A stretch of 64,000 bases of DNA from Chryseobacterium oleae (lineage in GTDB: Bacteria > Bacteroidota > Bacteroidia > Flavobacteriales > Weeksellaceae). A model generated the notes under the pieces. It did not search any database, was not told the origin of the DNA, and saw only the letters and a list, made by a program, of their open reading frames with translations. Positions 36,095-50,704 of the stretch are shown piece by piece (position 1 is the stretch's first letter; each line of letters begins with the position of its first letter). Location: positions 186,001-250,000 of the forward strand of contig NZ_FOVD01000001.1 in assembly GCF_900115055.1 (NCBI RefSeq). The letters are read 5' to 3'. The position numbers were made by a program, and so were the translations under genes.

Positions 36095-36178
36095 TTTAAA
36101 ATACTTGATTACAACAGATAATAAAATATCCGCTTAGTAGAACTTTACGTTTTGATAGATTAAGCCAGTCAAAATCTT

Positions 36179-36263
36179 TTTTAAACGCAAAGTTTTAAAA
36201 TCATGCTTTATATTTCAGGAAGGCAAAGGAAAGAATCAATTTCATTGATTCGATGAAGCGTAT
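36179..36263 (-). repeat. Half copy of the ACGCAAAG inverted-repeat element (copy B)
   Basis: It begins with TTTAAACGCAAAG and contains TATTTCAGGAAGGCAAAGG and the central hairpin GAATCAAT (36233-36240) / ATTGATTC (36244-36251). It then reads CGATGAAGCGTATG and loses similarity. It aligns with the reverse complement of the right half of the full copy at 37877-38049. The opposite terminal repeat is absent, so it is truncated. It fills most of the 324-bp gap after the TPR gene. Confidence 0.65.
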
Positions 36264-36354
36264 GAAGAAAGTTGAAAACAGGTCATATATCTTTATTTTG
36301 TGTAAGGACAAACCTGTCGTTTTCTTTTAAGTTTTTGGATCAGATGCTTTAATT

Positions 36355-37081: not shown

Positions 37082-37735
37082 ATGAAATTTTTTATTGACA
37101 CAGCTAATCTGGAACAGATCAAAGAAGCAAGAGACCTTGGAATTTTAGATGGTGTAACCACCAACCCTTCATTGATGGCTAAAGAAGGAATTCAGGGAAA
37201 TGAAGCGATCAAGAACCATTATAAGGCGATCTGCGAGATTGTAGACGGAGATATTTCTGCTGAAGTACTTTCTACTACGTACGAAGAAATGATCAAGGAA
37301 GGTGAAGAACTGGCAGCGATCCACCCGAATATCGTGGTAAAAATCCCAATGATCAAAGACGGGATCAAGGCATTAAAATATTTCTCTGATAAAGGGATCA
37401 GAACGAACTGTACGCTTATTTTCTCTGCAGGGCAAGCGCTTTTAGCAGCTAAAGCAGGAGCTACTTATGTTTCTCCTTTCTTAGGAAGACTGGATGATAT
37501 CTCTACAGACGGACTGGGTCTTATTCAGGAGATCAGATTAATTTTCGACAACTATATGTATGAAACTGAGATCCTGGCAGCATCTATCCGTCATTCTATG
37601 CACATCATCGACTGTGCTAAAATCGGGGCAGATGTGATCACTTCTCCACTTCCTCCGATCTTGAGCTTATTAAAGCACCCATTAACGGACAGCGGACTGG
37701 CTCAGTTTATCGCAGATTCTCAGAAATTAGCTTAA
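37082..37735 (+). CDS. fsa: Transaldolase / fructose-6-phosphate aldolase (TalC/FSA type)
   Basis: A 217-residue class I aldolase. The start [20 protein letters not shown] and [13 protein letters not shown] are hallmark blocks of short transaldolases, and the Schiff-base lysine is Lys87 in NIVVKIPMI. Such enzymes usually act as transaldolases in the pentose phosphate pathway; some are F6P aldolases. The sequence alone does not separate the two. Cytosolic, monocistronic. Confidence 0.93.
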
Positions 37736-37795: not shown

Positions 37796-37876
37796 TTAGT
37801 TTTCAACGCAAAGTCCGATTTTGATTCTTTACTTTTCTTTAAATTCAGTATCACCTAAAGTAAAAAAATTAAAAAA

Positions 37877-38049
37877 TTTAACGCAAAGATTTCATGCTAT
37901 ATCTCCTGATTTTAAGGTAAGCAAAGAGGTGCGGCTGTGCCACTGAATAAGCGGACGTTTTATGCACACGCTTCATCGAATCAATTGAAATTGATTCTCT
38001 ACTTTGCATTCCTGAAATATATAGTATGATCTTCAAACTTTGCGTTTAA
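37877..38049. repeat. Full ACGCAAAG inverted-repeat element (copy A, 173 bp)
   Basis: TTTAACGCAAAG (37877-37888) and CTTTGCGTTTAA (38038-38049) form terminal inverted repeats (11 of 12). Inside are a second pair (AGCAAAG near 37920 / CTTTGCA near 38002) and a central GAATCAATT/AATTGATTC hairpin (37978-37997). It holds no open frame of note. It aligns with copy B at 36179 and copy C at 48803. It occupies much of the 429-bp gap after fsa. Confidence 0.75.
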
Positions 38050-38164
38050 TAAAATTACTCCTTTTGCCGGAAACCAGTCTTAAATAATAAACGACAAAAA
38101 TAATCCCCGGAACTTTTAGATTCGGGGATTATTCCTGGGAAGTTTTTTAGACAACTTCATTCTT

Positions 38165-39025
38165 TTATTTCAACAGATCCAGTTCCAGAATATTATTTTC
38201 TTTTTTAATTTGATTAATCAATTGCATTTCTCTCTCCTTTCTCTTCGCATTAGAAGTTTTTACCAGTTTTCCTGAATCATCAATTTCCAAAACATCACGG
38301 CTTTGTGCCTGCATCAGCTTTTCACTTTTCATCGGATCTTTACAATAATCTTTAAAAGCTTGTTTATATTTTGTTTCATTCAATTTAATAAGGTTAAAAC
38401 CATTCTCTCCGGAATTCTTCCATTCATATCCTTCCGGAAGTTTTTTAATTCCCTTTAGTTCGAATGAATGCGTCTGGCTGGAATCCTCTAGCTTTACAAT
38501 GAGTCCGGGAAGCCCATAAAATTTAGAGGGTCCGTCCTGAATGAGCAAGTCTGTGGTAAACCATGCAGTCCATTTTCTGCCTGCAAATTCGCAAACAGCT
38601 TTTTGAGCTGCCAATTCTCCGATCTTTGCTTTGTCAGGAAGAATTTTCCATTTTTGTTTTCTTCTCTCCTCTACCATATACCTATCAATACCCAGAGAAT
38701 TGAAAAAAATTACCGAATAATCAGGATATGACTTTTCAACACTATAACGAATTTTGCCTTTGAATTTAATTTTTGAAAAATCTGTCTCTATTCCACGCTT
38801 AACATGCATATCCATAGCAGCAGCCCAAATAGAATCTGATTTAAAGACATCGCTGCTGTAAAAATTAGATCCCTTCGGAATAACATCCAGAAACATTATT
38901 TCAGTCTCTTGGACATCTCTTGCTGTAGAATCAATGCTGAACTTATACTCATAAATGAATCTCTGACTCTGAGCACAGACTGAAAGGGTTAATAGGAGAA
39001 TGAATAAGGTAATTACTTTTTTCAT
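38165..39025 (-). CDS. GLPGLI-family exported protein
   Basis: A 286-residue protein with a signal peptide (MKKVITLFILLLTLSVCAQS). The family-naming motif appears in SKFYGLPGLIVKLED near residue 175, preceded by WTAWFTTDLLIQDGPSKF. The family (TIGR01200/Porph_ging) is restricted largely to Bacteroidota and has no known biochemical function; members are exported. It is 8 bp downstream of the acetyltransferase gene and is the last of the minus-strand series starting at blaI. Confidence 0.88.
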   Translation of the reverse strand: MKKVITLFILLLTLSVCAQSQRFIYEYKFSIDSTARDVQETEIMFLDVIPKGSNFYSSDVFKSDSIWAAAMDMHVKRGIETDFSKIKFKGKIRYSVEKSYPDYSVIFFNSLGIDRYMVEERRKQKWKILPDKAKIGELAAQKAVCEFAGRKWTAWFTTDLLIQDGPSKFYGLPGLIVKLEDSSQTHSFELKGIKKLPEGYEWKNSGENGFNLIKLNETKYKQAFKDYCKDPMKSEKLMQAQSRDVLEIDDSGKLVKTSNAKRKEREMQLINQIKKENNILELDLLK

Positions 39026-39704: not shown

Positions 39705-40595
39705 TTATTTATACAGTTCTGGCTCTATTTTATTGTTATTTTTGGCTACTTCTTCTTTTGCTCTTTTTTCGATATTCCTGTACATTTCATTCATGTCAAT
39801 GCTTTTTCCATCCGCATTTTTCATATTGACTACAGCGCCTGCTGGCAATGTACTCATGGTCTGCTTCATATCTTTGGTAGGATCTGTAAGGTAGTCTTTC
39901 CAGGCTTTTTTAAACTGCTTTTTGGTGACTTCAATTTCTTTTCCTCCCATTCCAATCAAGGTCAGTCCCGGTATCTGAAGATCTTCATCTGAAGCGGCCT
40001 CCGTTTTCTTATTTCCTATTAAAGTCATAATGTGAGAGCCTGTTTTGTCTTCAATTTTTACAATAAGTCCAGGCAATCCATAAAATTTATACGGTCCGTC
40101 CTGAAAAGGAATATCTGTTGAAAACCATGCGGTCCAGGTTCTTCCCCCGTAATTGGTTGTGGCTTTCTGCGTATTATAATCTCCTATCTTTTCTTTATCC
40201 GGTAAGATTTTCCATTCGGGTTTCTGATCTTCCGCTACTTTATAGGTAGTGTTCCCTACTTTTTCAGAAAACGACATATTGTAGTCCGGATACTTTTTGG
40301 TAACGCTTGTGAAAATGGTTCCAGGCTTTATATTTTTCTTCATATTAATGCTTCCGCCAAATCCGCTCTTCATATGCTTGAGAATATCAGCTTTTGTGAT
40401 AGAATCTGAAATAAATTTTTCACGGCTGTAATATTTTGATCCGCTTTTATCGATATCCAAAAGCATAATATCACTTTTCACTTCTGCTCTGTTGGTAGAA
40501 TCTGCAATGTATTTGTAATCATAAAAGAATCTGTTGACCTGTGCCTGGGCGAATACACTTAAAAATGCCAATACAACGAAATAATTTCTTTTCAT
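39705..40595 (-). CDS. GLPGLI-family exported protein
   Basis: A 296-residue exported protein (signal peptide MKRNYFVVLAFLSVFAQAQ). It carries the motif YKFYGLPGLIVKIED and the preceding WTAWFSTDIPFQDGP, closely parallel to the protein at 38165. The two are recent paralogues by their shared blocks (RFFYDYKYIADST, WKILPDKEKIGDYNTQKA). It is preceded by the M56 gene and a hairpin, and followed by a terminator. Confidence 0.88.
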   Translation of the reverse strand: MKRNYFVVLAFLSVFAQAQVNRFFYDYKYIADSTNRAEVKSDIMLLDIDKSGSKYYSREKFISDSITKADILKHMKSGFGGSINMKKNIKPGTIFTSVTKKYPDYNMSFSEKVGNTTYKVAEDQKPEWKILPDKEKIGDYNTQKATTNYGGRTWTAWFSTDIPFQDGPYKFYGLPGLIVKIEDKTGSHIMTLIGNKKTEAASDEDLQIPGLTLIGMGGKEIEVTKKQFKKAWKDYLTDPTKDMKQTMSTLPAGAVVNMKNADGKSIDMNEMYRNIEKRAKEEVAKNNNKIEPELYK

Positions 40596-48803: not shown

Positions 48804-48970
48804 TAAAACGCAAAGTTTTATCTTAATAATGTATTACTCTGAGGGTTGCATAGACAGAATCAATCTCTGATTGATTTGACTAAGCGAATGTCTTATCCAT
48901 GAACTTAATCAACGACATAGCTACCTTCTTTGCCTTCCTAAATATGCAGTTTCTTCACTCGATTTTGCGT
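48804..48970. repeat. ACGCAAAG inverted-repeat element (copy C, about 167 bp)
   Basis: It begins TTAAAACGCAAAG (48803-48815) and has the central GAATCAAT...ATTGATTT region (about 48857-48876) followed by GACTAAGCGAATG. It ends with CTTTGCCTTCCTAAATATG and TTTTGCGT (48963-48970). The order of blocks matches the reverse complement of copy A. It fills part of the 496-bp gap before 49139; the remainder is AT-rich with no other visible feature. Confidence 0.65.
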
Positions 48971-49462: not shown

Positions 49463-50215
49463 ATGAGCAAATTTCTTTTAATATCCTTTCTAATCCTTTT
49501 TGGAAACTCTTATGCACAGGAGCAGTTACATATTCAGTATCTTAATGTTAGATCGCAAATAGCCAACGTATATGAGGATTTGTATACAGATGGCAAAAGG
49601 GTGATATCAATACAGGATGGTAATATAATGTGGACAGATCCCAGCCGTAACAAAGCAGGGAATAAAAAAAGACAGGATTTTTATTTCATTTCGAACATAG
49701 ATGAGACTTCTAAAGAAAGAAATTTCTTTTTCACATCCTTTGTTAAAGAGAATGCGGAAGATTATTATTTTGTTTATGATAAGGTTCCGCATATTGAATG
49801 GAAAATTAATAAAGAAAGCACAAAAAAAATACTTGGTTATGAGTGTATAAAGGCAACTGCTATTTTTCGCGGATCTCCAATTACAGCATATTACACTGAT
49901 GAAATTCCTTATTCTGTTGGCCCTTTTAAATTTTTTGGATTACCTGGCGCAATACTTGACATAAGAGTTGATAATAAGAATTACGATTTATGGAAAGCAG
50001 TAAAAGTTGACCGCAATGACAATACCAAAGTTGACTATAATCCCGATTTTAAAACATATACAAAAGCTAAAATGGAGGATTATGTAAAGCTAAAAGATGC
50101 CACTAATAAAGCATTTTTGAGTAATAGTAAAGTTGATGGAAGCACCGGAAAGATATTAACAGTACGCATGGGTATTGAAAAACAATTTGAATGGGAAGCT
50201 CAACCCTCCAATTAG
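49463..50215 (+). CDS. GLPGLI-family exported protein
   Basis: A 250-residue protein with a signal peptide (MSKFLLISFLILFGNSYAQE). The family motif appears as FKFFGLPGAILDIRVD near residue 150, with the LI of GLPGLI changed to AI. It follows the small peptide gene closely. It differs from the two GLPGLI proteins at 38-40 kb in sequence and is not near a BlaI/M56 pair. A hairpin at 50258-50288 ends the transcript. Confidence 0.85.
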   Translation: MSKFLLISFLILFGNSYAQEQLHIQYLNVRSQIANVYEDLYTDGKRVISIQDGNIMWTDPSRNKAGNKKRQDFYFISNIDETSKERNFFFTSFVKENAEDYYFVYDKVPHIEWKINKESTKKILGYECIKATAIFRGSPITAYYTDEIPYSVGPFKFFGLPGAILDIRVDNKNYDLWKAVKVDRNDNTKVDYNPDFKTYTKAKMEDYVKLKDATNKAFLSNSKVDGSTGKILTVRMGIEKQFEWEAQPSN

Positions 50216-50257: not shown

Positions 50258-50288
50258 AAATCGGTATAACTTTCTGTTATACCGATTT
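50258..50288. terminator. Strong hairpin ending the GLPGLI and tRNA units
   Basis: AAATCGGTATAAC (50258-50270) pairs perfectly with GTTATACCGATTT (50276-50288) around TTTCT. The minus strand has a long T-run after it, so it is mainly the tRNA terminator; it may also end the GLPGLI gene. Confidence 0.85.
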
Positions 50289-50295
50289 AGTTTAG

Positions 50296-50368
<73 letters not shown>

Positions 50369-50407
50369 GTGTATTTTTAGAGTGCTTACCGAAAGCACTT
50401 AACTTAG

Positions 50408-50480
<73 letters not shown>

Positions 50481-50519
50481 GTGTATTTTTAGAGTGTTTA
50501 CCGAAAACACTTAGCTTAG

Positions 50520-50592
<73 letters not shown>

Positions 50593-50631
50593 GTGTATTT
50601 TTAGAGTGCTTACCGAAAGCACTTAACTTAG

Positions 50632-50704
<73 letters not shown>

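Follow-up and report, generated by a model that had tools for sequence, protein, structure and literature searches.

What kind of element is the palindromic repeat that recurs in the window (the whole stretch of DNA analyzed here, 64,000 nt, corresponding to C7:186001-250000 of the 5.28-Mb genome G000), and is there an enzyme that could account for its copies? An earlier note on this DNA had described two full copies and one half copy that encode no protein, and had read them as a non-autonomous mobile element or a structured RNA family. Using nhmmer, we recovered all three copies, and no open reading frame (ORF) of at least 80 amino acids overlaps any of them.

Copies, anatomy, and fold of the element

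The first full copy (37881-38045, minus strand, 127 bits) is in reverse orientation relative to the model, with its B half first on the plus strand, and matches the covariance model described below with an E value of 5.1e-21 in the genome search. Its start had been placed at 37877; the additional 4 nt are flanking sequence, and the core begins at 37881. The terminal repeat ACGCAAAG is present at the B end (37881-37888, plus strand) and at the A end (38038-38045, minus strand), and the inner GCAAAG is located at 37921-37926 on the plus strand in the B half (pattern match C7:223881-223926) and at 38002-38007 on the minus strand in the A half (pattern match C7:224002-224045). As read from the sequence, hairpin 1 in the A half consists of GAATCAAT-TGAA-ATTGATTC (37978-37997, plus strand), and hairpin 2 in the B half consists of GTGGC-ACA-GCCGC with one G-T pair (37931-37943, minus strand). 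A further ACGCAAAG outside this copy (37806-37813, plus strand) lies within an outer module resembling the flanks of several copies in the genome G022. There, we observed a larger multi-copy composite that consists of the element and a common flank on one or both sides (L286, L289, L290, L291, and L298), and these flanks resemble those of the 37881 copy.

The second full copy (48808-48970, plus strand, 98 bits) matches the model with an E value of 3.3e-15 (C7:234808), carries GACTAAGCG, and has a worn right end that reads ATTTTGCGT. The half copy (36185-36265, plus strand, 57 bits) covers model positions 1-81 of 163, i.e., the A half only, and contains ACGCAAAG, an inner GGCAAAG, the GAATCAAT/ATTGATTC hairpin, and GATGAAGCG; the relative G048 likewise has a half copy at this place. 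Regarding the internal parts that the three copies had been said to share, the GAATCAAT/ATTGATTC hairpin is indeed present in 3/3 window copies, while the 48808 copy is the only one without ATTTCAGGAA and GATGAAGCG. Over 68 nt, the arm at 36177-36244 is 88% complementary to the arm at 37986-38053. Within the window, ACGCAAAG occurs 5 times versus 1.6 times expected, an excess that is weak on its own (4 of 100 shuffles reach 5).

Elsewhere in the window, three related proteins sharing a motif, which we take to be GLPGLI-like, map to 38165-39025, 39705-40595, and 49463-50215, the first two with a common 98-nt stretch that is 77% alike. Four tandem tRNA genes of equal score at 50287-50704 have a 112-bp period and are 97-99% alike, including the spacers.

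A genome-wide search with a covariance model, as the earlier note had proposed, identified many more copies. The element is palindromic and 163-170 nt long. A DNA search of G000 with the element gave 53 matches, and a pattern search for the paired motif ACGCAAAG-N18..40-GCAAAG gave 88 occurrences versus one for the reversed control. The covariance model, which was built from 23 copies that match it by construction and include both full window copies, gave 117 matches; many of these are one place read on both strands, and 43 distinct full-length places have an E value of 5e-14 or better, with copies below the score limits excluded from the counts. Tandem arrays of 4 and 5 copies are present at C9:159444-160272 and C12:269106-270360, respectively. 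Using stricter filters and scoring at most 48 candidates per genome, we found matches to the model in 56 of 60 genomes of the genus and none in G010, G029, G035, and G045. Based on simple ORF calls, 0 of 42 G000 copies are inside an ORF; 37 copies have neighbors on both sides, and these neighbors are convergent in 13, codirectional in 20, and divergent in 4 cases. At the gathering score, an Rfam scan of the window returned tRNA only and no family on the element, and scans of ten element loci likewise returned nothing on the element. We note that the DUF805b RNA (RF02914) scored above its gathering score at L028 1849-1883 and 2757-2792, of which the first lies ~190 nt beyond the end of the C12 array.

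The element consists of two inverted halves, each with ACGCAAAG, ~25 nt, GCAAAG, a hairpin, and half of a central stem. In the A half, ACGCAAAG and ~25 nt are followed by AGG..GCAAAG, the hairpin GAATCAAT..ATTGATTC, and GATKAAGCG; the B half has the same layout with the hairpin GTGAC..GTCAC. Where the two halves meet, their GATKAAGCG segments pair to form a central stem, and thus the whole element can fold as a four-way junction. To this anatomy, the flanks of 148 copies add a T-rich left side and an A-rich right side that prolong the inverted ends.

Covariation supports this structure. Among 65 diverse copies from the genus (of 76 selected, with 11 left out), 94.9% of cells pair, and 74 cells changed on both sides versus a mean of 26 in shuffles that ignore relatedness, with 0 of 500 shuffles reaching 74. 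Compensated pairs number 11, with 5 of 8 in hairpin 1 (helix 3), 5 of 5 in hairpin 2 (helix 5), and 1 of 6 in the central stem; hence, the two hairpins together have compensatory changes in 10 of 13 pairs. The two end helices (14 pairs) have 0 compensated pairs, and their sequence is nearly fixed. We read this pattern in the aligned copies as probable selection on shape in the interior of the element and on the letters at its ends.

Dispersal among relatives and sequence at the element ends

Confinement of the copies to conserved syntenic places, which the earlier note had named as speaking against its reading, was not observed. The place of the 37881 copy beside the gene at 37082-37735 is occupied in only 2 of 24 other genomes of the genus (G048 and G022), and in G034, a copy is located ~0.5 kb further downstream of this gene. 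The G022 element agrees with the window copy in 111 of 184 columns in the same orientation and in 115 of 179 columns when inverted, while the flanks are far more alike; gene conversion, inversion, and independent change would leave the same picture here because like flanks recur elsewhere in G022.

G000 and its relative G048, with flanks mostly 91-97% alike, have 17 single-copy full places in common, a number that is biased upward because the first 20 G048 stretches were picked for holding an element; the second 20 were picked by predicted synteny. At one of these 17 places (C8:757602), the element is inverted in place, with 150 of 171 columns identical once inverted. For six full G000 copies, both flanks are present in G048 with no recognized element between them. 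Because the adjoining sequence also differs, with a remnant at C8:510538, these six places fit insertion and loss equally, and none was a clean empty site in which movement itself could be caught. In addition, the half copy at C7:454727 (L104/L160) corresponds to a full copy in G048 and looks like the product of a deletion.

Target duplications, for which the earlier note had proposed to inspect the copies, were not evident at the core ends: among 148 copies and at equal offsets of 0-13, exact repeats of at least 5 bp were present in at most 3 copies per offset. At offsets 6-7, 2 copies have such repeats, slightly over the permuted maximum of 1, and 4-bp direct repeats at offset 0 are in an unexplained excess (17 versus a permuted maximum of 10). 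G000 and G048 together have 67 distinct copies, of which 14 lie within inverted GGATCA-like arms and most have no arms. One armed copy (L092; C8:283123) has an exact 8-bp duplication, GAATAATG, outside its arms. Similar GGATCA arms enclose a second ORF-less core (AACATTAAG...CTTAATGTT; L256, L265, and L104). By eye, no obvious transposase stood out among the ORFs listed for nine loci that have GGATCA-like ends. We also considered an outer palindrome as a general target and rejected it: among 63 de-duplicated copies, only 8 have flank inverted repeats that exceed the 95th percentile of crossed pairs and 2 have ones that exceed the 99th, and nesting in outer palindromes therefore holds for a subset only.

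GxxExxY genes next to the repeats

In several genomes, copies of the element are located shortly before a gene whose product starts with MTENELSYKII and is a GxxExxY protein (149 bits for a cutoff of 35 and 143 bits for a cutoff of 22). PF13366 is present in 55 of the 60 genomes of the genus, with 1-9 genes each and 5 in G000. Among the first 30 PF13366 loci, an element is upstream in 23, all of the ELSYKIIG-like type and with 29-90 nt between the end of the nearest copy and the matched domain, and absent in 7, none of that type. Extending this to 74 loci, of which two without a readable gene (L483 in G035 and L348 in G033) were dropped, we found the element upstream of every one of the 27 ELSYKIIG/ELSYQIIG-type genes, a type set by these letters and not by a tree, versus 0 of 45 other GxxExxY genes; the scoring was lenient (12 bits), and the copies in G001 and G053 reach only 19 and 22, respectively. 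One to five copies precede the type gene at a fixed locus, with the one listed copy per locus in reverse orientation in 26 of 27; the G053 copy is further off (-288 to -141) and in the other orientation.

The 27 type loci are one syntenic locus (same upstream neighbor in 27/27 and same downstream neighbor in 25/27) and not 27 independent events, and the Fisher value of 2e-20 therefore overstates the link. Within the genus, the association may go back to a single ancestral event that selection has preserved. In each of the 27 genomes where a type gene was read, this locus has retained the element, versus the 2 of 24 beside the gene at 37082-37735. Genomes with a type gene hold a median of 34 copies (n = 27) versus 9 for those in which none was read (n = 33; P = 1.7e-6), with at most 48 candidates scored per genome and with only some of the GxxExxY copies read in the latter group. 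G013, G047, G017, and G055 hold 30-43 copies, though no type gene was read there, and genomes without PF13366 still hold copies (15 in G019, 9 in G040, 9 in G043, and 7 in G024). By eye, most of 8 other GxxExxY loci in the genus have other inverted repeats, of the CACAGAT, CGCAGAT, or AACATTAAG type. The AACATTAAG-type repeat resembles the second core within GGATCA arms, and a motif like that of the second core flanks the GxxExxY gene at G000:C12:180439 (L474).

The G, E, and Y of the GxxExxY motif are invariant in 22 of 22 aligned proteins. Two alignments of 22 and 45 proteins, the larger one leaving out genes with stops (L382, L409, and L411), show the site residues Asp, Glu, and Lys in every member; among all 72 genes of the genus, D, E, and K are kept in 71, 71, and 72, respectively, and among the 27 of the ELSYKIIG type in 27, 26, and 27. 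We modeled the structure of a Flavobacterium member (L402; pLDDT 95). None of the Foldseek matches to this model reached an E value of 0.001; the best (E 0.0057) was SSO0001, presumably a Cas4 protein. VIA-align of the same model gave Z 9.9 for SSO0001 (99 aligned, rmsd 2.9), 8.3 for a restriction-endonuclease-like protein, 7.0 for Cas4 Pcal_0546, and 5.9-7.0 for Hjc Holliday resolvases. As judged from the model, the linked protein is a small protein with a predicted PD-(D/E)XK nuclease fold and the D, E, and K residues of the site, and the lower Z values (Cas4 Pcal_0546 and Hjc) may reflect the common fold only. A sequence search of the PDB returned no match, PADLOC only a weak similarity to Cas4 (E 3.6e-4), and PHROGs a single weak family of unknown function. 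GxxExxY proteins were found in 8 of 72,556 plasmid records and 0 of 50,697 phage records, from which records near the genome of the window may be excluded; based on this rarity on plasmids and absence from phage records, the gene looks chromosomal. An array copy of the element had no match among the plasmid records.

Beyond the genus, 29 GxxExxY loci of the phylum are bracketed by inverted CRCRRAG motifs, with 51 upstream and 46 downstream; shuffles gave 1.5 each, and the opposite strand carries 12 and 10, respectively. For 15 of these loci, the own inverted-repeat score exceeded the 95th percentile of crossed pairs, and for 8 it exceeded the 99th. For a wider set, we scanned named genomes with 22 proteins, without using the flanks, and took the best 80 of 573 relatives, which span Bacteroidota, Verrucomicrobia, Cyanobacteria, Chloroflexi, Proteobacteria, Acidobacteria, Planctomycetes, a methanogen, and others; 4 with short flanks were dropped. 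In the 76 usable loci, CRCRRAG occurs 1.99 times per 150 nt upstream and, inverted, 1.84 times downstream versus 0.09 and 0.15 times, respectively, for neighboring ORFs (n = 100). The sums are 151 and 140, with 37 and 62 on the opposite strand, and 45 of the 76 loci have the motif on both flanks; only 29 loci have an own inverted-repeat score that exceeds the 95th percentile of crossed pairs, and only 13 have one that exceeds the 99th.

Across 148 Bacteroidota genomes, the number of GxxExxY genes correlates with the count of CRCARAGNNCRCARAG, which includes repeats next to these genes themselves (rho 0.63 versus 0.02 for the reversed control; 0.58 for family means; 0 of 2000 within-family permutations). 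Three genomes (G103, G195, and G165) have at least 5 repeats, with 9-12 CRCARAG repeats each, and no PF13366 gene, and the stretches of G103 and G165 that we read offered no explanation for this. ORF-less inverted CRCRRAG units of ~90-100 nt are also present in other genera (G107, G083, and G180), the absence of a GxxExxY gene there being judged from ORF lists.

Candidate explanations for the repeat population

We favor, with a probability of about 0.6, the reading of the element as a REPIN-like, non-autonomous repeat of intergenic regions whose cognate enzyme is a GxxExxY (PF13366/TIGR04256) nuclease. The conserved ends, i.e., the T-rich stretch, ACGCAAAG, and the inner GCAAAG, repeated inverted, would be recognition motifs of the CRCRRAG type, while the hairpins and the central stem would let one strand, or extruded duplex, fold into a four-armed structure. 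The family, its fold, and its linkage to one GxxExxY type are observed directly; from them, we infer that the GxxExxY protein could bind these motifs and cut the folded repeat, and that such cutting, followed by repair or copying, could spread or maintain copies with no duplication of the target. These observations suggest a REP-like repeat system on an enzyme class not known for such a role. More tentatively, GxxExxY proteins across bacteria may be PD-(D/E)XK enzymes for palindromic CRCRRAG-type repeats, each clade with its own repeat type, that cut the repeats in folded or cruciform form and would in this way make and keep dispersed populations. If so, this would be a second REP-type system, with an enzyme unrelated to RAYTs, and a function for a large uncharacterized family, and it would explain part of the repeat-rich intergenic regions in the genus and in many Bacteroidota. 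The link makes both sides testable, since it provides a candidate substrate for the GxxExxY protein and a candidate driver for the repeats. We found no paper tying such repeats to the GxxExxY family, a weak absence given that most subscription papers were outside the search.

Several of the same observations could be read in other ways. We consider it unlikely that the element is transcribed and acts as an RNA, e.g., as a cis element in the 5' leader of the GxxExxY gene and in other transcripts. The compensated hairpins, in which GU pairs are tolerated, and the fixed place and nearly uniform orientation upstream of one gene would fit such a role, but DNA hairpins would show covariation as well, the near-fixed and uncompensated end helices are as expected of a binding motif, no Rfam family matches the element, and the copies lie between convergent, codirectional, and divergent ORFs, with none of the 42 placed copies inside one. 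Old repeats might also have spread passively by recombination or slippage with no dedicated enzyme, leaving the GxxExxY gene as a bystander or as a user of the repeats as operator sites. The tandem arrays, the half copy that reads as a deletion, the single in-place inversion among the 17 shared places, and the copies in genomes without PF13366 are consistent with this; given that related motifs bracket GxxExxY genes in many phyla and that gene and repeat numbers correlate, we regard it as quite improbable.

We give slightly less weight still to the reading of the element as an ordinary MITE that a DDE transposase mobilizes, through the ends of the element or with it as a passenger of an outer GGATCA-ended MITE. 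Like a DDE MITE, the element has inverted ends and is non-coding and intergenic, and one armed copy lies inside an outer unit with an exact 8-bp duplication. Unlike a DDE MITE, it lacks a clear duplication at the core ends, and a search that covered Y1_Tnp, the one family tried, identified no transposase with matching ends; moreover, most copies are without arms, and similar arms surround another core. Of the two classes originally proposed, a non-autonomous mobile element remains the better one, with a structure backed by covariation and no Y1_Tnp transposase to match.

Returning to the reading of a REPIN-like repeat with a GxxExxY enzyme, we compared the element with the systems described in the abstracts of published work. 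REPINs consist of two REPs in inverted arrangement and are associated with RAYTs (PMC3116915), and TnpA-REP enzymes belong to the HUH proteins, act on folded single-stranded REPs, and co-evolved with them (PMC8266576). Many bacteria carry dispersed palindromic repeats, and the repeat-linked enzyme family named in these abstracts is this HUH RAYT/TnpA-REP group. As in REPIN/RAYT systems, the element is extragenic, an inverted doublet able to fold, and present in many copies; the GxxExxY gene is, like a RAYT gene, chromosomal and kept in place beside its repeats; and differing repeat types lie beside differing genes of the family. Unlike a RAYT, the linked protein has a predicted PD-(D/E)XK fold and not an HUH Y1 fold, and unlike a REPIN, the element has a length of 163-170 nt with two hairpins and a central stem. 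Because the layout is that of a REPIN and the enzyme is not, we class the element as a variant and not as a member. GTAG- and CGTC-tagged repeats are described in an abstract as two super-families (PMC3733652). By eye, hairpin 1 of the element has no GTAG, and CGTC is present inside hairpin 2 of some copies and not at its foot.

A RAYT as partner was considered and rejected: the sole PF01797 (Y1_Tnp) gene of G000 is located at C8:675260, and the surrounding 3.3 kb are without ACGCAAA and contain other repeats. This RAYT-like gene (C8:675260-675598; L031) has its own repeats, TCGTCCCTTTGGGAC and TCGGACTGTATCCGA, which by eye look CGTC-tagged, REP-like, and separate from the element family.
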